In this document: in pieces, positions 30,233 to 42,179 of the stretch
Position numbering within the stretch: position 1 is the first letter of the stretch
Layout of the letters: each line of letters begins with the position of its first letter
Assembly (NCBI GenBank): GCA_902597095.1
Contig: CACJWK010000001.1
Span: 1 to 64,000, forward strand
Length of the DNA: 64,000 nt
Reading direction: 5' to 3'
Source: an uncultured Pseudohongiella sp.
Lineage (GTDB): Bacteria; Pseudomonadota; Gammaproteobacteria; Pseudomonadales; Pseudohongiellaceae
Program-made: the position numbers and the translations under genes
The notes under the pieces: generated by a model
Database searches by the model: none
What the model saw: only the letters and a program-made list of their open reading frames with translations
What the model was told of the DNA's origin: nothing

Positions 30233-31321
30233 ATGGTTTCCCGCGGTGCTGCAGCCGACATGGCGGCAGAAGGAAAGACCGCTCAGCTGCCGGCCTCAAT
30301 TCATTACTTTACCGGGCTTTTCTGGGATGATAGGCGCTCGACTGCAATTGATGGACTGATTTTGCAAACGCAATTCATCGACCGCTGTTCCCAACTCGAT
30401 CAACTCAACTGGCAGGGTGTGATCGATGCCCTTATTGCCGGTCACCAATTGCCGCGCGCAGCTATCACTGACACGGTTCTGGCAGACAGCACTAATCGCC
30501 TGCTCAATCGTTCAGCTCGGATTGAGGGCCTTGGCTATGTTGTAAAAAGTGTCACGGTTTTTCCGAAGAATCCAGCCCGAGAGCAATTTTTGCCCAGTGT
30601 GCAGGGCATCTGCACAGTGTTCGACGAATGCACGGGGCAGGCTCGTGCCCTGATTGACGCCGAGCTACTGACTTACTGGAAAACGGCCGCCGACAGTGTG
30701 CTGGGGGCTAAGCTGCTGGGCCCGGCGGAACCCGAACACCTGCTCATCTTCGGGGCAGGTCAGGTGGCCCGATCATTGATCGATGCTTACACCACTATAT
30801 TCCCCTCGATCACGACCGTGACTCTCTGCGTCCGTCGCTTGCAGTCGGCGGACTGGCTGAGGCACAAATTAGCCGCTGATGAGAAACGTCTTCCTTTTGC
30901 TCTCAGGGTCTCCACGGACCCGGCTGCTGTAGTTCCGCTTGCCGATATTGTAGCCACGGCCACAACTTCAGAGACACCTGTGTTGCAGGGTAACTGGCTC
31001 ACGTCTGGCGCTCATGTTGATCTGGTCGGGGCCTACATGGCCAGTATGCGGGAAGCTGATGACCACACGCTGCAGCTCGGGGCCCTTTATGTCGACTGTC
31101 GCGACACCACTGTCGAGCATATCGGTGAGCTGGTGATACCGCTCGCCAGCGGAGCGATTCAGCCTGTCAGTGTTCTGGGTGACCTGTATGACCTGATCGC
31201 GCAAGGTACCGGAGACGGCGGGCGGATCAGGGATCCGCAGCAAATCACGGTCTTCAAAAATGGCGGGGGCGCTCACCTTGACCTGATGGTGGCGCATCAT
31301 CTGATGTCTTTGTTCCCTTGA
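30233..31321 (+). CDS. ornithine cyclodeaminase / mu-crystallin family protein
   Basis: GICTVFDECTGQARALIDAELLTYWKTAADSVLGAKLLG, LIFGAGQVARSLIDAY, VATATTSETPVL. Confidence 0.88.
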   Translation: MVSRGAAADMAAEGKTAQLPASIHYFTGLFWDDRRSTAIDGLILQTQFIDRCSQLDQLNWQGVIDALIAGHQLPRAAITDTVLADSTNRLLNRSARIEGLGYVVKSVTVFPKNPAREQFLPSVQGICTVFDECTGQARALIDAELLTYWKTAADSVLGAKLLGPAEPEHLLIFGAGQVARSLIDAYTTIFPSITTVTLCVRRLQSADWLRHKLAADEKRLPFALRVSTDPAAVVPLADIVATATTSETPVLQGNWLTSGAHVDLVGAYMASMREADDHTLQLGALYVDCRDTTVEHIGELVIPLASGAIQPVSVLGDLYDLIAQGTGDGGRIRDPQQITVFKNGGGAHLDLMVAHHLMSLFP

Positions 31322-31327
31322 AGAGAG

Positions 31328-31585
31328 CTAGTCCCTTTCGAGCAGCTGTGCAAAGCGACCGTTTGACAGCATGAGGGTCAGCTCCCGGAAGCCGCCCACG
31401 GACTCATCTCCGACAAAAATCTGCGGCAGGGTAGACTGCCCTGAGCGTTGAAGCAGCTCGGCGCGCAAGGCAGGGTTGCCGTCTGCTGCAATCTCCTCAA
31501 ATACATAGCCTGCTTCTGCCAGCACCCGGGTGGCTCTGGTACAAAAGCCGCAAAATTGTCTGGTGTAAACCGTGATTGTCCGCAT
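31328..31585 (-). CDS. grxC: glutaredoxin
   Basis: 85 aa; CGFCTRAT active site, STLPQIFVGDESVGGFREL. Confidence 0.88.
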   Translation of the reverse strand: MRTITVYTRQFCGFCTRATRVLAEAGYVFEEIAADGNPALRAELLQRSGQSTLPQIFVGDESVGGFRELTLMLSNGRFAQLLERD

Positions 31586-32765: not shown

Positions 32766-34244
32766 TCAGTCCTCTGCCAGCGCCTTGTCAATGGCACAGG
32801 TCAGGTTGTCGCTGGATTGCTTGAGTGCGCTGTAAGTTTTCCTGAGCCAGAGTTGATGCCCCTGCTCGATTTGCCGCTGTTCTTCGAGCGCCGCGCGGGT
32901 TTCTGCCGGAGCCGGGCCGCCATAAATTGCACGTACGTTCACGAAATTCACCGCGCTGAGTGCATTGTCAAACTCTGCTTCACTCAGATTGAGGTCCCGG
33001 TTCGTCTGTTCTGAAGTCGCTTTCTTAAGCATCTCATAACTGATGTCCCGATCTTCCTCAGTCGATTGCTTGACCAGTTGAGCGACGATGCTGTGCGCGA
33101 GGCTGAAGGGGAGGCCTTCGCGGCGCACGATGACATCAGCCAGTTCGGTGACGGTAATAAAATTTCCCTCCGCTCGCGCTCTGAGTAAATCCAGATTGAA
33201 CTCGGCTGCCGAGAGAGCATCAGACAGCAGCGAAACTGCCCTGACGGCATCTCTGACTGCTGAGAAATTGAGCGGCTGCAGGTCATCTTCGACGTCGTTG
33301 ATGTCGCCGAAAGGCGTGTTGTGAACGCTGGTCATGACCCCCATGACCTGACCAAGCGCCTTGCTGGCAATTGCACGAACGTGTTCAATCGCAACCGGAT
33401 TCCGTTTCTGCGGCATGATGGAGGAAGCCTGCACATAGCCGTCCGGCAGCCGGACCACATTGAATTCAGCCATGGCCATTAACAGGAATTCCTGCGCGAA
33501 TTTACCCACATTGATCAGCATGGCAGCGGTCGCACCGAGCAGTTCCGTGAAATAGTCAACCGATGCAATAGAGCCGTAACTGTTGCGGGTTGGCCGGCTA
33601 AAGCCGAGCAGTTCCGCGACTCGGTGTCTGTTGATCGGAAATCCGGTAGTCGTGATCGCGCAGGCGCCGAGCGGGCAGTGATTTAGATTGTCGAACGCGT
33701 TTTTCAGCCGGGAAACATCCCTTCCAGTATTTTCGGCCATAGCCAGCAGATAGTGGGCGATGGTCGTAGGCTGGGCGGGCTGCGTGTGCGTGTAGGCAGG
33801 CATCAGCGAGTCATGATGTTGTGCGGCTAGATTCAGAAAGACCGACTGCAGCCGAGTACAGGCGTCTATCAAGTCCAGTGTCTGCTCTCTGAGGCGCAGG
33901 CGATAAATAGTAACGTCAATATCGTTCCGGCTGCGGGCGGTATGAAGTTTTCCCGCAATATCCTTGTCCCCGACTTCTGCAGCAATGGCTCGCTGGATAT
34001 AATAGAACAGATCTTCAACGCTGCCGTCGTACTCTGCGCGGCGGATCGTTTCAACATTCAGCTTCTCAATGGCTCTCAGGATTTCTGACAGTTCACCGCG
34101 AGTGACAATGCCTTGCTCACCAAGCATCAGGACGTGAGCGCGATCAACGTCCAGGTAATGTTCCAGCAGATATTGTTTGGCATCAGCGAAACAGTCACTG
34201 CGCACATTGTCCTTGTAACCCTGGGCTGGAAATTTCTCGCTCAT
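32766..34244 (-). CDS. argininosuccinate lyase / fumarase-superfamily lyase (divergent from canonical ArgH)
   Basis: Superfamily signature SSIMPQKRNPVAIEHVRAIAS; HTARSRNDI; THTQPAQPTTIAHYLL. Lacks the canonical ArgH WGGRF start. Confidence 0.85.
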   Translation of the reverse strand: MSEKFPAQGYKDNVRSDCFADAKQYLLEHYLDVDRAHVLMLGEQGIVTRGELSEILRAIEKLNVETIRRAEYDGSVEDLFYYIQRAIAAEVGDKDIAGKLHTARSRNDIDVTIYRLRLREQTLDLIDACTRLQSVFLNLAAQHHDSLMPAYTHTQPAQPTTIAHYLLAMAENTGRDVSRLKNAFDNLNHCPLGACAITTTGFPINRHRVAELLGFSRPTRNSYGSIASVDYFTELLGATAAMLINVGKFAQEFLLMAMAEFNVVRLPDGYVQASSIMPQKRNPVAIEHVRAIASKALGQVMGVMTSVHNTPFGDINDVEDDLQPLNFSAVRDAVRAVSLLSDALSAAEFNLDLLRARAEGNFITVTELADVIVRREGLPFSLAHSIVAQLVKQSTEEDRDISYEMLKKATSEQTNRDLNLSEAEFDNALSAVNFVNVRAIYGGPAPAETRAALEEQRQIEQGHQLWLRKTYSALKQSSDNLTCAIDKALAED

Positions 34245-36883
34245 CTGTTGTCCATTGGCTCCGGCGCTGCAGGCAGGCTCAACAGGTTTGCGAAGATTCT
34301 GTAGGCGCCCGGCACTCCGTTAGGTAACTGCCGAAACCAGGAATAGGAAGTGTAGACATAATGTCCGTTGCCGATGCGGGTGTGCAACATCGCGCCGTCG
34401 CTGGCGGGCTCCCCCTCGTCGTGCGCTTCTGTCAGAGGGGTGAAATTCTCCCGATCGAAGTCAGTGAAGTTATAGTTATTGCGTTCTTGCACCCAGCCGT
34501 CGAAATCTTGAACACCGATACGATTCGGGAAGTTGAATACCGGATGATCTGGTGCCAGCACGGTAATCGCCGCGGTTTCATCGACCACCCGGACGTTGCC
34601 GTCCATGCTCACCGGATAGGGAGCAAGGCCTTTGCTGGCAAAGTCCGGCTGCTGATACTGAACGATCAGTGTGCCTCCCTGTTCGACGAATGCCAGTAGT
34701 CTCGCATTGTTGGCAACAAAAGCTTCTCGTGTCTGGGACGCGCGAATGCCAATGATCAGCGTATCGAACTGTGATAAGTCTCCGGAGGTCAGATCAGCAT
34801 CAGACAACAGAGACACGTTCACGCCCATGCGACGCAGGGCGGCGGGTACAGTGTCACCGCTACCCATGATATAGCCTACCTGCACGTCAGCCACAACAAC
34901 GTCGACAATCTGGATTTCGGTGGTGGCAATCCGATAAGTGCGGTGGGTGCGGATATGTGGATAGGCAATCTCCCGGACAGTCTGATCAAAGCGTGTGCCT
35001 GCAACAATTGCGCTGCTCAGGAGTCGATAACGACCGGCTTCGACATCCTCTGGCGGCCTCACCGTAAAGGCCAGTGAAGCACTTGCAGGGGCTGGCGCCA
35101 TAGCAAAATCGGCAAAAGACGGTTCGAGTTGCCACCCCGGAGGCAGGCTAAGCTGTGCCGTACCGCTGATCTCTTCGTCGCTGTTGTTCTGAATGGTGAG
35201 AACTACAGGTATTGGTGCCGCTGCGATCGATTTTGGTATCACCAGGAGATCTGTCGCGGGTTCGACTGAAACACTGGGAACCACATCAACCCGTCGCCGG
35301 AGCTCTCCGCGCACCCGATCAAGCTGTCGATATTCGACTTCTCGTTCTGCGCTGATTTCGATACCACCGATCTCGACAGTCACTGAGGCGACAAGCAACG
35401 GCTTCGCAAATGGCAGCGTTTTCGCCCCGGGATCATTGCCCCATGCGTAGGCGGAACCCTGTCTATCTTCCACCAGCCAGTAGGGTTGAGTGAACTGGGC
35501 ATCGCGGGGCACGGAGACCCGGTAGACACGCTGAGCATCAAAGTGGTCTGCTCCGCGCATGCTGATTTCGTTGGTCAGCGCTGCCTCTGGCGAGGGCGCG
35601 AACAACCAGCCGGCTGGTCCCTCAATCGTTGAGTCAATTATCCGTGCTTGCGTCATCTCAGGCATATAGGCTCGCACAGCGACAGTGGCGACACTTCCCG
35701 GCTCAAGGGTCTCCCGATCAATCAGGGCATCGATACGAATGCCTGCAGCAAGGAGCAGCGCTTGTTCGAGCTCCCTGCGTTTTTCCTCGAGCAGGCGCCG
35801 CGCTTCCTGATCTTGCGATGCCGCAATTACTTCCCGGACCAGAGTGTGGGCGGCTGCCAAAGAGGGAACAGAAGCATCTGGCTCAAGGGGCTCAAAATCC
35901 CTCAGAACCGAGGCAAGCAGATCCTGCAGATTGCCGAGTTTCTCGATGAATCCAGCAGATGCTTGTGGCTCGAACCTCGCGATTCCGCTGACAGAGGTAT
36001 TGATACCGCCGAACACGGAGCTTTCCGGTACCACTATGTCCTGATTGCTGCTGGCCCGCCGTAACACGGAATATTGTGAACCCTGCAATTCCAGAGAGCC
36101 CATCTGCTGAGTTTTTTGCTGGCTTCTTCCCTGCATGCCGATCTGGAAATAGCTATGTCCGGACAGCGGGTCGTATTCGCCGGTGTTGATTCTAAGCAGA
36201 GATGAATCCGGTGACGGTGAGGCATTTCTTTCACTCACATAGAGCTTCTGAACCTGCCAGGGGGTCAGCCCGTTGACAAGCTGTTCCGGAAAGCGACTGG
36301 AATCAGCGGCAGCTTCGATTGCAAGAGGAGTCAGGTAACCTGCAAACTGATGATGGCCGTGACCGTCTGTTGCCGTGCCGTCCCATCTGGACACGATCAC
36401 ATCGGGACGAAATTTCCGGATGGTGTACACCACATCCGCCAGCACCGCGTTTTCCGGCCAGACCCGCTGCGCTTCGCTGAGGGTTTTGGAAAAGCCGAAG
36501 TCATTGGCTCTGGTAAAGTACTGCGACGCGCCATCGAGGCGACGCGCCTGAAGCAGCTCTTCAGAACGTATGACCCCCAAGGCATCTGACTGTTCGGCGC
36601 CAATGATGTTCTGTCCTCCCGAGCCTCTGGTCAGGGAGAGGTAACCGGTGCGGGCATGCACGCGGCGGGCATGATAAGCCACTAGAGCTGAGTCCTCATC
36701 GTCCGGATGCGCGCCGGTATGAAGAACCGCGGCTGTTGTTTGCAGGCGCTGCAGCTGTCTGAAAAGACCATTCATCCCCTGATCATAGACTGCAGCAACC
36801 TGCCCAGCTGCGGGAAGGCTCAGACAGACGAAAAATGCTGAGATCAGAAGACCTGAAATTTTGCGAATAGGCTCGTGAGTCAA
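34241..36883 (-). CDS. PIG-L/LmbE family deacetylase with large C-terminal extension
   Basis: 880 aa; [17 protein letters not shown] and [11 protein letters not shown] metal motifs; C-terminal beta-rich and GATase1-like segment ([36 protein letters not shown]). Confidence 0.88.
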
Positions 36884-38556
36884 GCTTTATCCCTCGTCAG
36901 ATAGCTGATTGACCCGCCGGCAAGGACGGTCGCACAGGTGCCGACCACATTGAACCAGAGAAATGCTAGATTGGAAAATGCACTGACTGCCCAAACTGAC
37001 AGCATTCCACAGAGAAGCCCGAAAAAAGCGCCGGAGGCATTCGCGTTGGGAACGGCGAACGCTAGCACGAAGACTCCAAGCAGGGAACCGTAGAAAAAAG
37101 AGCCAAAGGTATTCACAACTTCGATGAGAGACCCCAGATTAGTGACAAATGTTGCCACGATGCAGGAAAACAGACCCCAGATAAAAGTGCTCAGACGGGC
37201 AAAGCGCAGTAGTTCCCGGTCGGTGCCCTGCGGATTCACGTGGCGGGCGTAGAAATCGATTGTCGTTGCCGTGGAAAGAGAATTTAATTCTGCGGCAACG
37301 CTGGACATGGCAGCCGCGAGAATCGCGGCAACGATCAGCCCAACCAGTCCAGCTGGCATATTCTGCAGCACGAATACCGGGAAGACATAGTTGACATCAG
37401 TAAACGAAGGCTCTTCATTAGTCTGCTGTACAAACGCTATGGCCTCTTGTCTGATGTTGTTGAAGTGGTCATTGGCCTGCTGGAAGGCCCGCTTCCCGTC
37501 GGCCCCTGTTGCCAGTGTCCGTGAACTGAAGTAGTGCGTCGCAGCCTGTCGTCGCAACTCATGGCTGTCATGGAACGCCTGTTTCAGTTCCTGATAGTGC
37601 ACTGGCGCCTTCGCGGCAGCATGTTGCTCCGCATCCGGATTAAAAACCATCGGCGGCGTGACAAACTGATAGAAGACAAAGATCAGAATTCCGATAAGCA
37701 AGATCAAAAATTGCAGCGGGATCTTTAGAAAGGCGGACATGAGCAGGGACGTGCGACTTTCATCAACAGAGCGCGCGGTGAGATACCGCTGAACCTGGCT
37801 CTGATCACAACCAAAGTAGGAAAGAAACAGAAACAGGGCAGCAAGTGTTCCTGACCAGAATGTGTATTGCTCGCTCAGATCAAAACTGAAATCAACGGTT
37901 TTCAGTTTGCCCGCTGCTCCAGCCAGGAACATGGCATCCTGAAAGTGAAAACCGGGCGGCAGGCTTTGCAGAATTATAACAATGCAGGCGGCAAGACCCA
38001 GAACGATAATAAGCATCTGCTTCACGTCATTCCATGCCACTGCCTTGACGCCTCCCATCATTGTGTAGAGCGTTGTTGATAGACCGATCACAAAGATAGT
38101 GGGCAATTCACTCCAGCCGAGCACGATCGAAAGGACCACTGACGGAGCTGCGATGACAACACCCACGCCCAGCGCTCGAGAGATCAGAAAAAAGAAACTG
38201 GTCAGAGACCTCGTCCGCGCATCGAAACGTTTTTCAAGATATTCATAGGCGGTAAAAACCTTGGCGCGGTAAAAGAAGGGCACTGCCGTCATGCTCAAAA
38301 TAATCATCGCGATTGGCAGGCCAAAATAGAACTGAATGAATCTTAAACCATCATTATAGGCCTGTCCGGTCGTGCCAATCAGGGTGATGGCGGACATCTG
38401 TGTCGCCATCACTGACAGACCAACTGCCCACCAAGGCAAGCTTCGACCGGCAAGGAAAAAGCTTTGGGTATCCGCTGAGCCGCGGCTGAGCGCTATGCCA
38501 TGCCAGATTACATAGGTCAGATAGGACATAAGAATGAACCAGTCGAGGCTATTCAC
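36880..38556 (-). CDS. sodium:solute symporter (SSS family)
   Basis: 558 aa polytopic; [63 protein letters not shown] start. Confidence 0.9.
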
Positions 38557-38559
38557 TAA

Positions 38560-38691
38560 TCAAGCCGCAAAAATACTGGCGAATACGAGCAGTGCCAGCA
38601 CGGTAAGAGCAGTGTTCACAGCCACAAGAACATAAAGCGTGTGCCACTTCCTTGAGGGCTGCTTATGTTTGGGTGGGTGTGGTGGTTTCAT
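38560..38691 (-). CDS. 43-aa single-TM small protein upstream of the symporter
   Basis: My translation: MKPPHPPKHKQPSRKWHTLYVLVAVNTALTVLALLVFASIFAA. Stop lies 3 nt before the symporter GTG. Not in the ORF track (too short). Confidence 0.6.
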   Translation of the reverse strand: MKPPHPPKHKQPSRKWHTLYVLVAVNTALTVLALLVFASIFAA

Positions 38692-38792
38692 GCCGGTGAT
38701 TGTCTTTATGCGCTAGTTTTGTTAAGAGCGTCAGCCCTAACCGCCAGAGCACAGGGAACCTGCACCCAGCTTTCACATCTCTCCAGGCAGAA

Positions 38793-38824
38793 AAAAACGG
38801 CGGTGATTACTCACCGCCGTTTTG
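38793..38824 (-). terminator. Rho-independent terminator for the minus-strand TonB receptor
   Basis: AAAACGGCGGTGA TTAC-TCACCGCCGTTTT hairpin directly after the stop of the gene at 38844. Confidence 0.85.
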
Positions 38825-38843: not shown

Positions 38844-41800
38844 TTAGAACTGCCAGAGCAGCCTTGCGTACCAGCGTCGACCACGAGCGTCAAACACTGA
38901 AGCGTTGAAAGATCCGCGTCGATACAGAGGAATATCTGCATCTGTGGCATCAATCACGCCCACAGTAAAGGTAGAGGAGCCCATGCTGCTGTTGGCCCAG
39001 TCGTGAGTGTACACGTACTGAACGTCCCAAGAGTTATAGCTGTCCACCTTACTTCTCGCGTAGTCCTTCTCGATCTGTGGAGTATTCGGATTAGCCATGT
39101 AGTCAGCATGTCCCAATACCTCGAAGGAGCCAGTGTGGCGATTGAAGATCGTCACGCGGTGATTATCCATGTTCCAGCTCAGGGATAGATTCGCACGATT
39201 GTCTGGAACTTCACGCACGATGTTCTGCTCGCCATCGACACCTGCAGCATCGAACCTTCCGGTCTCCTGCAGGCCGAGCTCTAGACCAGGTACATCCTTC
39301 ACAAGGTACTCATCGATGTGCGTGTAGTCAGCCGCCAGCCTAAAGTTACCGAAGTCTGTGCTCCAGCGATAACCTAGGCTCAAGTCGACCCCTTGTACTT
39401 CAATATTACCAGCGTTGACAGCGGGCAATACAATCGTAGTGAGTCCTCCGTTTACATCGTTTAATGAACGCTGTATCCCGGGCACTACATAAGACGCTGG
39501 ATTAACTACACAGTTTAGACGCTCATCGGAGTCGATACCGAATTGCGCCGCGAGGGCATCAGGGTCACAAGCAATAACATTGCCGTCTGGACCTCGCGCA
39601 TCAAGAGGCTGGGAGTCGTTCAAGATGTAATTGGACTTGTCGCCGACGACTGAGTTGAACTTGGCAATTTCGGGGTTGAGCGCTGCTCGCGGAATTAGCG
39701 GCAGCACACGATCGCTTACCTCAAATCTCCAAACGTCCGCTCCAACGCTTACGCCTTCAAGTGAGCCACTGGGGGTCCACTGGAAGCCCAGATTGTAGGT
39801 ATCAGCAGTCTCGTTACCCAGAAATGGGTTAGGTGATCCAGAGGTGTAGGAGCTGTTCTGGATCGCGTTAGCGTCCGTAGCTGGCAGCAAGCCTGCTCGA
39901 ACCTTCTGATTACGCAGAGGGTCTTGAACGCTTGTGCCGAATGCCTCGAACGCCTGGTTCACAACGCCGATGTTTGGCGCTCGGAACGACTGAGAGTAAG
40001 AACCGCGCAGCAGCCAGTCTTCGGTTGGCCTCCAGCTTAGTGCCACCTTCGGAGACAAGTCGCCGCCGATGTTACCCCCGTAGTCCTCCCAACGCAGGGC
40101 TACTTGGGTTTCAACGTTATTTGCAAATGGTAGCGACAGTTCGACAAATGCAGCGTTGACCGAGCGGGAATCGTTGAAATTGAAGATGCAGCTGGCACAC
40201 TCTAAATTGTTTGTGATTCCTTCTTCAAACTGATTCGGGGCTCCAAACAGTCCAGGCTCATATCCCTTGATAACGGTTAGGCCCGGGAGGTTGATGTCAG
40301 GAGCAATGCCAGAAGCATCCCTTTCTCGTCTCTGGATACCAGCTGCGAACTGGGCTGTACCGCCAGTCATTTCAAACATTTCGCCTGAGACAACTGCATC
40401 GAAGACCAAAAGCTGATTGCGCTTATCTGCTCTGTTGATCCTGCCTGTCATCCAGTCAGTGAGCTCTTGCGAATTGGCAAGGTCCGGATTAGTGAGAGCA
40501 GTAAGGTACGGATTGAAGAATTGACAACCGTCCTGCCCGTGGTTGGTGGATGTGAGAGCATAAGATGTGCTCTCCCTTGTGTTGAGCACATATCCCGGAA
40601 ACACCGTGTCAAAAAGTGCGGACAATCCACCAAAGGAAGGAATGGCCTCGAAGTGGAAGTTAGGCGTTCCATTTGGCGTACAGTTTGGACCGCCCAAGCC
40701 GTATAGCGCCATTTCCGTGCGGTCTCGTATGAGAGTCGCATAGTTTTGCTCTATGCTGGAGTCGCTCCATGCAAGGCTCACATCGTAGCTCAGCGCAGTA
40801 TCATTAAAGCCCATGCCCTCAAGTTCACCGCGAAGACCCATTTGTGCGCCTGAAGTGGTATTCGTCGTTAGGATGTCTTCAGTTGAACGAGGCCAGCCTG
40901 TCCTCACACCGCCACCGTAGTAGCCTTGTCCGAATCCACCATTGGATGCTAGGTGCGGGTTATTAGCCGCTGGCGCCAATACAGGAGGATTGCCAACGAA
41001 GGTAGATAACGCTCCGAGAGTGGTTGGAGCATGGACCAAGTGCGCTGTTCTTGAAAATGAGATTCCATCCCACTCACGAACAGTTTCAAGATCAGAGTAT
41101 GTGAAGAACGAGTAGAACTCCGCATTTTCACTGAATGTGTGCTCAAAGCTCATAGCCGCACTAGTGCGTTCTTGGCCGATTGCGATGAACTGATTCGCCA
41201 TATTGTCCTCATAGCAGCGGCCATTTCGTCGACCTACACCAGTAAATCGATTGTCTTTATAAAATGGTCCAAGGTCTCCTGAGAGCGTCTCACAAAGAGG
41301 GTCGGCGAAGACAAGGCCCCGAGTCCCCGAAACTGACTCTTTCAAGCCGATCTTTTCAATTGTCTGCTGCTGCGTCAGAGCGAGATCGATAAAGGCCGGA
41401 TTGAAGCCACCACCAAGTGGGCTGGTGACACGAAAAGCGCCTACTTCCCCATTACTTATTATGCGGGTTGGATCAAAGTACTGTGCATCAGCCAATGGGA
41501 CCGGATCACGCTCGAATTGCTCAGCAGAGATTACCAAGCGCGTATCACCATCATTAAAGCTGGTGCCCCAAATACCACTGAAGGTCTGCTCGTAGGTTCC
41601 GCCAGACTCTTGGACACCCTGAGTATCAGCGAAGAGTTCGAGGCCTTCAAAGTCAGTGCGCATAATGACGTTGACCACGCCCGCGACCGCGTCTGAGCCG
41701 TAGAGTGCGGAGCCACCGTCGGTAAGAACCTCAACGCGATCAGTCATGACCAATGGGATGGTATTCAGATCAACAAATTCTTGTCCGGAGCTGGTCACGA

Positions 41801-42179
41801 CCGCTGCGGGAGTGAATCGCTTGCCGTTGATGAGCGTCAGGGTGGAGTTACCGCCTAGATTTCTCAGGTTGACCGACGCAGTACCTTGCAGCTGGCTGGC
41901 GTCATTAGATCCGGCAACACTGGTATCCGAACCCTGATTCACTTCGAGGTTTCGGATCAGGTCCCAGATCTGCGAGGCGCCCTGTTCCTGAATTGAGTCT
42001 CGGTCGATCACGGTAACTGGCGAGGGGGCGTCCTCAGGCGTTCCTCTTATGAACGACCCTGTGACCACGATTTCCTCGACGCCATCGTCTTGCGCCAGAG
42101 TTTGGAACGATGTTCCGGCACTGGCCAGCATAATTGCGAGGGCGAGCCCCTGCTTCTTGCACGGAAAGTTTCTGCGCAT
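38844..42179 (-). CDS. TonB-dependent receptor
   Basis: 1111 aa; EEIVVTGSFIRGTPEDAPSPVTVIDRDSI TonB box/plug, LTDGGSALYGSDAVAGVVNVIMR, C-terminal RRWYARLLWQF. Confidence 0.95.
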   Translation of the reverse strand: MRRNFPCKKQGLALAIMLASAGTSFQTLAQDDGVEEIVVTGSFIRGTPEDAPSPVTVIDRDSIQEQGASQIWDLIRNLEVNQGSDTSVAGSNDASQLQGTASVNLRNLGGNSTLTLINGKRFTPAAVVTSSGQEFVDLNTIPLVMTDRVEVLTDGGSALYGSDAVAGVVNVIMRTDFEGLELFADTQGVQESGGTYEQTFSGIWGTSFNDGDTRLVISAEQFERDPVPLADAQYFDPTRIISNGEVGAFRVTSPLGGGFNPAFIDLALTQQQTIEKIGLKESVSGTRGLVFADPLCETLSGDLGPFYKDNRFTGVGRRNGRCYEDNMANQFIAIGQERTSAAMSFEHTFSENAEFYSFFTYSDLETVREWDGISFSRTAHLVHAPTTLGALSTFVGNPPVLAPAANNPHLASNGGFGQGYYGGGVRTGWPRSTEDILTTNTTSGAQMGLRGELEGMGFNDTALSYDVSLAWSDSSIEQNYATLIRDRTEMALYGLGGPNCTPNGTPNFHFEAIPSFGGLSALFDTVFPGYVLNTRESTSYALTSTNHGQDGCQFFNPYLTALTNPDLANSQELTDWMTGRINRADKRNQLLVFDAVVSGEMFEMTGGTAQFAAGIQRRERDASGIAPDINLPGLTVIKGYEPGLFGAPNQFEEGITNNLECASCIFNFNDSRSVNAAFVELSLPFANNVETQVALRWEDYGGNIGGDLSPKVALSWRPTEDWLLRGSYSQSFRAPNIGVVNQAFEAFGTSVQDPLRNQKVRAGLLPATDANAIQNSSYTSGSPNPFLGNETADTYNLGFQWTPSGSLEGVSVGADVWRFEVSDRVLPLIPRAALNPEIAKFNSVVGDKSNYILNDSQPLDARGPDGNVIACDPDALAAQFGIDSDERLNCVVNPASYVVPGIQRSLNDVNGGLTTIVLPAVNAGNIEVQGVDLSLGYRWSTDFGNFRLAADYTHIDEYLVKDVPGLELGLQETGRFDAAGVDGEQNIVREVPDNRANLSLSWNMDNHRVTIFNRHTGSFEVLGHADYMANPNTPQIEKDYARSKVDSYNSWDVQYVYTHDWANSSMGSSTFTVGVIDATDADIPLYRRGSFNASVFDARGRRWYARLLWQF

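Follow-up and report, generated by a model that had tools for sequence, protein, structure and literature searches.

LmbE-like enzymes are defined by an HxD1D2 + H metal-binding motif, and those identified by the time of a 2014 review act on N-acetylglucosamine cores or, for Mca and Bca, on N-acylglucosamine cores (PMC4101496). Bca acts on conjugates of bacillithiol, and recycling of the glucosaminyl-malate (GlcN-malate) that it leaves is only presumed (PMC4101496). Bacillithiol is built from cysteine, glucosamine, and malate (PMC4360819). Among the low-molecular-weight thiols of bacteria, it is described as predominant (PMC12719100). We analyzed a stretch of 64,000 nucleotides (the window), positions 1 to 64,000 of contig CACJWK010000001.1 in assembly GCA_902597095.1, from an uncultured Pseudohongiella sp. 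Its minus strand contains a unit of four genes: a small single-transmembrane (single-TM) open reading frame (ORF), an SSS symporter, a PIG-L protein, and an ArgH-like lyase. Judged from genomic context, the chances are about even that this unit is a catabolic or scavenging module for bacillithiol (Cys-GlcN-malate), its disulfide, its S-conjugates, or its precursor GlcNAc-malate.

Lyase and PIG-L families

The lyase gene (32766-34244, minus strand) encodes a 492-aa protein of the ArgH/fumarase superfamily with Pfam matches to Lyase_1 (153 bits) and ASL_C2 (42.7 bits). It has the fold and the fumarate-side motifs (SRND, YTH, and SSxMPxKxN) in common with argininosuccinate lyase (ASL; ArgH, TIGR00838). 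We compared 62 family members with 12 canonical ArgH proteins, 9 from the comparison genomes and 3 from arg operons. SRND, YTH, and SSxMPQKxN are retained in the 62 homologues and lie at residues 105-108, 151-153, and 274-282 (SSIMPQKRN) of the window protein. The ArgH segment K..LPLxYNKDxQEDKE is replaced in the family by HNTPFGDIxDxE(D/E)xQP. The ArgH Tyr and Gln become Asp314 and Glu319, and an upstream ArgH Lys becomes His308, each invariant (62/62); the window signature reads H308-N-T-P-F-G-D314-I-x-D-x-E319. We take the ArgH segment to hold Tyr323, Lys325, Gln328, and Lys331 in duck delta-crystallin numbering and to lie on the leaving-group side. The delta-crystallin paper supports H162, E296, and the fumarate side only (PMC2779060).

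The AF2 model of the lyase (pLDDT 91) is closest in fold to ethylenediaminedisuccinate (EDDS) lyase (6g3d; TM-score 0.87) and then to ASL. EDDS lyase is 31% identical to the window protein, with similarity over the full length. The two differ in the residues of the Y320 segment, where the alignment is ambiguous by one residue, and in genomic context. Together, the motifs and the fold point to release of fumarate from an X-CH(COO-)CH2COO- compound in which X is probably not arginine.

The lyase stands outside an arg operon, and the only arg neighbor of its homologues at the comparison loci was one ornithine transcarbamylase-like gene (L047). The possibility, raised in a preliminary description of the locus, that the lyase is the sole ArgH was not borne out in most comparison genomes. 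An ASL_C2 search of 11 such genomes showed a second, clear ArgH (74 to 104 bits) in 9, among them the genome of the near twin L005. The other two, G003 and G011 (the genomes of L016 and L018), contained a second ASL_C2 match that was weak and under the cut-off. The window's own genome is 77% complete, and its sole ASL_C2 protein is this lyase. A specificity distinct from that of ArgH is well supported by these sequence comparisons. The best NCBIfam match of the window lyase was NF005218 / PRK06705 'argininosuccinate lyase' (395 bits; cut-off, 883), which was matched by 25/25 family members scanned. The function annotated by this model is likely wrong for the wider family, and public genomes are likely misannotated.

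The PIG-L gene (34241-36883, minus strand) encodes an 880-aa protein from a TTG start, with Pfam matches to PIG-L (51 bits) and NPCBM_assoc (NEW3; 27.7 bits). It contains a signal peptide (~1-28), the PIG-L domain (~50-220), a helical region, NEW3/beta domains (~380-660), and a C-terminal alpha/beta domain (~665-870). Every family member inspected showed a signal peptide by eye, which would place deacylation outside the cytoplasm, ahead of import. The preliminary description had proposed import followed by N-deacylation; the PIG-L amidohydrolase holds, and the order is reversed. The Zn motif (H59-P-D61-D62 with H175/H178) is invariant in 25 members and places the window protein in the LmbE-like/PIG-L superfamily.

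The best NCBIfam match was mycothiol-conjugate amidase Mca in 25/25 members, below the cut-off. Direct membership in Mca or BshB was considered for the window protein and rejected, as its scores fall far under the curated cut-offs. Profile searches led to LnmX and MshB, and the AF2 model (pLDDT 86.5) has MshB as its best fold match. The window protein has the PIG-L domain, the HxDD + H motif, and a best match to Mca in common with Mca, Bca, BshB, and MshB. Those enzymes have ~230 to 300 aa, whereas the window protein is secreted and carries fused NEW3-type and C-terminal domains.

Transporter and recurrence of the module

The SSS symporter gene (36880-38556, minus strand) encodes a 558-aa protein from a GTG start that matches SSF (PF00474) with 166.5 bits (cut-off, 22.8). 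Its closest solved structure by sequence is PDB 5nv9 (E 4e-50), titled 'putative sodium:solute symporter', which we take to be the sialic-acid symporter SiaT. SiaT carries another acidic amino sugar. The window SSS differs from it in being paired with a conserved gene for a single-TM partner of 34 to 51 aa. Sialic acid was considered as a substrate, given the SiaT-like SSS and the ROK genes found at related loci. It was rejected, being cleaved by an aldolase and lacking a succinyl or malyl group for the lyase.

The partner gene in the window (38560-38691, minus strand) encodes 43 aa, with no Pfam or NCBIfam match for this copy, and is a putative accessory subunit of the symporter. A short single-TM ORF precedes SSS in 21/21 comparison loci (20 by scan, L017 by translation); the length range above applies to the best-fitting start, and alternative starts give longer ORFs. 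The gap to SSS is 3 nt in Gammaproteobacteria and 6 to 27 nt in Acidobacteria. The aligned motif is W..(I/V/L)Y..V......L...F(S/A)..(F/Y)(A/S), with a conserved Trp, (I/V/L)Y, and an FS.YFS-like C-terminal end. We infer that the small protein is a subunit of the SSS transporter. The pairing of a miniprotein gene with a SiaT-like SSS is conserved in two phyla (window, L004-L029). In some Acidobacteria, genes for APC amino-acid permeases sit at the SSS position or close to it (L023:5307-6806, L031:11454-12917). The transporter has possibly been replaced there while the lyase and PIG-L stayed.

The lyase was used as a query against 84,980 species genomes and returned 76 loci. The order SSS - PIG-L - lyase recurs in gammaproteobacterial metagenome-assembled genomes and in Acidobacteria such as Pyrinomonadaceae. 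The lyase and the large PIG-L also occur together, with different gene arrangements, in Acidobacteriia and Bacillota; in Acidobacteriia and Thermoactinomycetaceae, the large PIG-L gene is oriented divergently from an operon of transporter and lyase. The last gene of the clostridial operon is the lyase, preceded by ROK kinase - sugar ABC - amidohydrolase - cysteine desulfidase homologue - ROK regulator. Within 10 kb of the lyase at 64 family loci, we counted PIG-L at 38, SSS at 21, and ROK at 19, which are lower bounds because some contigs are short. Among 118 relatives, 12 were lyase positive, the same 12 were PIG-L positive, and 1 more had PIG-L only (Fisher 1.5e-15, a value that ignores phylogeny). 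Both genes were present in the same 4 of 10 members of a Thermoactinomycetaceae family sample. The distribution of the unit within the genus is patchy, like that of an accessory catabolic trait. L061 and the related L122 have the lyase without relevant neighbors and do not discriminate between readings.

A module of symporter, PIG-L, and lyase that is more than a chance grouping is well supported, because the SSS-PIG-L-lyase order and the upstream small TM ORF recur. The preliminary description had joined import, N-deacylation, and a lyase in one coupled module and had held that homologues which rarely neighbor each other would speak against it; they do adjoin each other in other genomes. Its ORFs, strand, and coordinates were all confirmed in the sequence. 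So were the 4-nt overlaps at SSS/PIG-L (TTGA, 36880-36883) and PIG-L/lyase (ATGA, 34241-34244) and the stop of the 43-aa ORF 3 nt ahead of the SSS start. The exact 4-nt overlaps are not conserved among the comparison loci. The first is retained in L004, L005, and L016 and the second in L004, L021, and L022; spacing varies elsewhere, with several PIG-L starts being mechanical upstream starts.

Candidate substrates

An amino sugar is indicated by several neighbors of the lyase homologues: ROK regulators resembling NagC, a glucokinase-type ROK kinase, and SIS proteins of the NagB-II/GlmS kind. The clostridial neighbor is a full-length L-cysteine desulfidase homologue (PDB 9he0, E 2e-26). It is 28 to 31% identical to Escherichia coli CyuA (E ~1e-35 to 1e-42) and matches the serine deaminase TdcG with an E of only ~1e-4. 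Each third of bacillithiol is thus matched: cysteine by the desulfidase, glucosamine by the ROK and SIS genes, and malate by the lyase. The preliminary description had suggested an unknown N-acylated or N-succinyl-type compound. Its N-acyl and fumarate-yielding logic is kept, and the neighbors favor an amino-sugar core with a malate-like group over a generic N-succinyl amino acid.

In five Acidobacteria, the unit also has a genomic link to a bacillithiol gene. Among lyase-carrying genomes, the bacillithiol synthase gene bshC was present in 14/15 acidobacterial and 6/7 Bacilli genomes and in 0/6 of clostridial type. In the five Acidobacteria, bshC and the lyase share contig and strand, with bshC ~11 to 13 kb upstream. 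The order there is bshC - mutL - (ROK) - TonB-dependent receptor (TBDR) - SSS or permease - PIG-L - lyase, with mutL assigned by eye. An antisense ORF masks the frames of both genes in the map of L112, and bshC there rests on its search hit.

If the substrate is bacillithiol, a common glutathione counterpart in bacteria, or one of the related compounds named above, it would enter through an outer-membrane TBDR. The secreted, Zn-dependent PIG-L would cut the N-acyl bond on glucosamine to yield GlcN-malate together with cysteine, an S-cysteine conjugate, or acetate. This acidic amino sugar may then be imported by the SiaT-like SSS with its single-TM partner. In the cytoplasm, the lyase would take the malyl C3 proton, eliminate fumarate, and free glucosamine. 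Fumarate would go to the tricarboxylic acid cycle, and a ROK kinase would form glucosamine 6-phosphate (GlcN-6-P), with such genes found at the loci of relatives. Such a glucosaminyl-malate lyase would be a new enzyme activity, a C-O elimination to glucosamine and fumarate. The C-N bond lysis of the preliminary description would give way to cleavage of a C-O bond; the release of fumarate stands, as the fumarate-side motifs are kept. More tentatively, three or more phyla (Pseudomonadota, Acidobacteriota, and Bacillota) may share a bacillithiol-degradation pathway centered on this lyase, in which a bacillithiol amidase is secreted and the SSS transporter has two components, one of them the single-TM subunit. 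Gammaproteobacteria without bshC would be scavengers of bacillithiol.

Several observations weigh against bacillithiol. C-N bonds are the classical target of the ArgH family, and the proposed C-O cleavage departs from this; carboxymethyloxysuccinate lyase is a precedent for elimination at a malyl ether. The window PIG-L scores 42.5 bits for Mca (cut-off, 277) and 20 bits for BshB1 (cut-off, 182.5). bshC was found in 0/13 lyase-carrying gammaproteobacterial genomes, and no sugar-catabolic or cysteine gene adjoins the unit at gammaproteobacterial loci, including the window. In the clostridial operons with the desulfidase, PIG-L is not nearby. The bshC linkage comes from one Acidobacteria lineage, has mutL in between, and may be a single historical event. 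Bacillithiol also leaves unexplained the staphylopine-type metallophore genes that adjoin the L123 module.

The own-genome ROK kinase (G000:C37) is away from the unit; its neighbors, judged by eye, are adenylosuccinate synthase-like and HisZ-like. It lends weak support because it is not in an amino-sugar operon. NagB-II gave weak matches only in the gammaproteobacterial genomes, mostly in frames of GlmS length.

The strongest rival is another amino-sugar/dicarboxylate substrate, for example a Heyns/Amadori product of aspartate (sugar-N-succinate) or an N-acylated sugar-aspartate. PIG-L would deacylate it, SSS would import it, and the lyase would cut its C-N bond to give fumarate and glucosamine or fructosamine. 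This chemistry is the family norm, the nearest lyase fold is EDDS lyase, and the ROK and SIS neighbors also suit glycated amino acids. The APC permeases of L023 and L031 have FrlA among their weaker matches. The SIS neighbors are, however, far nearer to NagB-II/GlmS than to fructoselysine-6-P deglycase (238 versus 51 bits, L054). Such a compound also leaves the L-cysteine desulfidase, the bshC linkage, and the Mca-like PIG-L unexplained, and we consider it unlikely.

It is improbable that the module breaks down a chelator or metallophore built on aspartate (EDDS, aspergillomarasmine-like). A TBDR or an Fe-type ABC importer would bring in the metal complex, and the lyase would act like EDDS lyase, its closest fold. 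Substrate-binding protein/ABC importers in Bacilli, the TBDR neighbors, and the staphylopine dehydrogenase homologue adjoining L123 suit this explanation. It gives no role to the PIG-L, ROK, GlcN-6-P deaminase-like, or cysteine desulfidase genes, and the family signature appears to replace the segment containing EDDS lyase Y320. Although the lyase exceeds the TIGR00838 argH cut-off (339 versus 279.5 bits), a redundant or diverged ASL in a fortuitous operon is very improbable in view of the invariant non-ArgH signature in 62 homologues, the second clear ArgH in 9/11 genomes, and the retention of the unit across phyla.

At L123:4578-8488 (Bacillaceae, G021), a PIG-L/ROK/ABC/lyase module is immediately followed by a gene of the dienelactone hydrolase family and an opine metallophore operon of the staphylopine type. 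That operon encodes a Staph_opine_DH match of 667 bits, and its CntK/CntL-like genes were identified by eye only.

Flanking genes and implications

A TBDR gene (38844-42179, minus strand) lies upstream of the unit and encodes 1111 aa with TonB_dep_Rec (95.6 bits) and Plug (69.3 bits) matches. A TBDR gene also adjoins the unit in L005 and L006, and an unrelated CNA-type TBDR occupies this position in Acidobacteria. The receptor is a possible outer-membrane entry route for the substrate. A strong intrinsic-terminator-like hairpin with a T run (38791-38821, minus strand) folds at -22.1 kcal/mol (z -6.6). It separates the receptor gene from the four-gene unit, which probably has its own transcript. 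In a promoter scan, sites were no more numerous than in shuffled sequence. A glutaredoxin gene (31328-31585) lies near the unit, on the opposite strand to the second neighbor, an ornithine cyclodeaminase-family gene (30233-31321).

Searches of the open-access literature found no described bacillithiol breakdown route, bacillithiol lyase, PIG-L + ASL + symporter combination, or link between bacillithiol and argininosuccinate lyase; subscription journals and bioRxiv were outside their scope. The families are known; neither their combination nor the lyase specificity nor the pathway seems to have been described in the literature searched. The preliminary description likewise knew of no characterized pathway with this exact combination. 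If bacillithiol is the substrate, the unit would be an ecological sink for the bacillithiol thiol pool. A lyase group now named argininosuccinate lyase would be reannotated, and C-O glycoside elimination would be added to the ArgH family. The conserved miniprotein paired with the SSS transporter would also gain a function. Even with a different substrate, the conserved lyase signature and the gene context make the question testable by an A240 assay.

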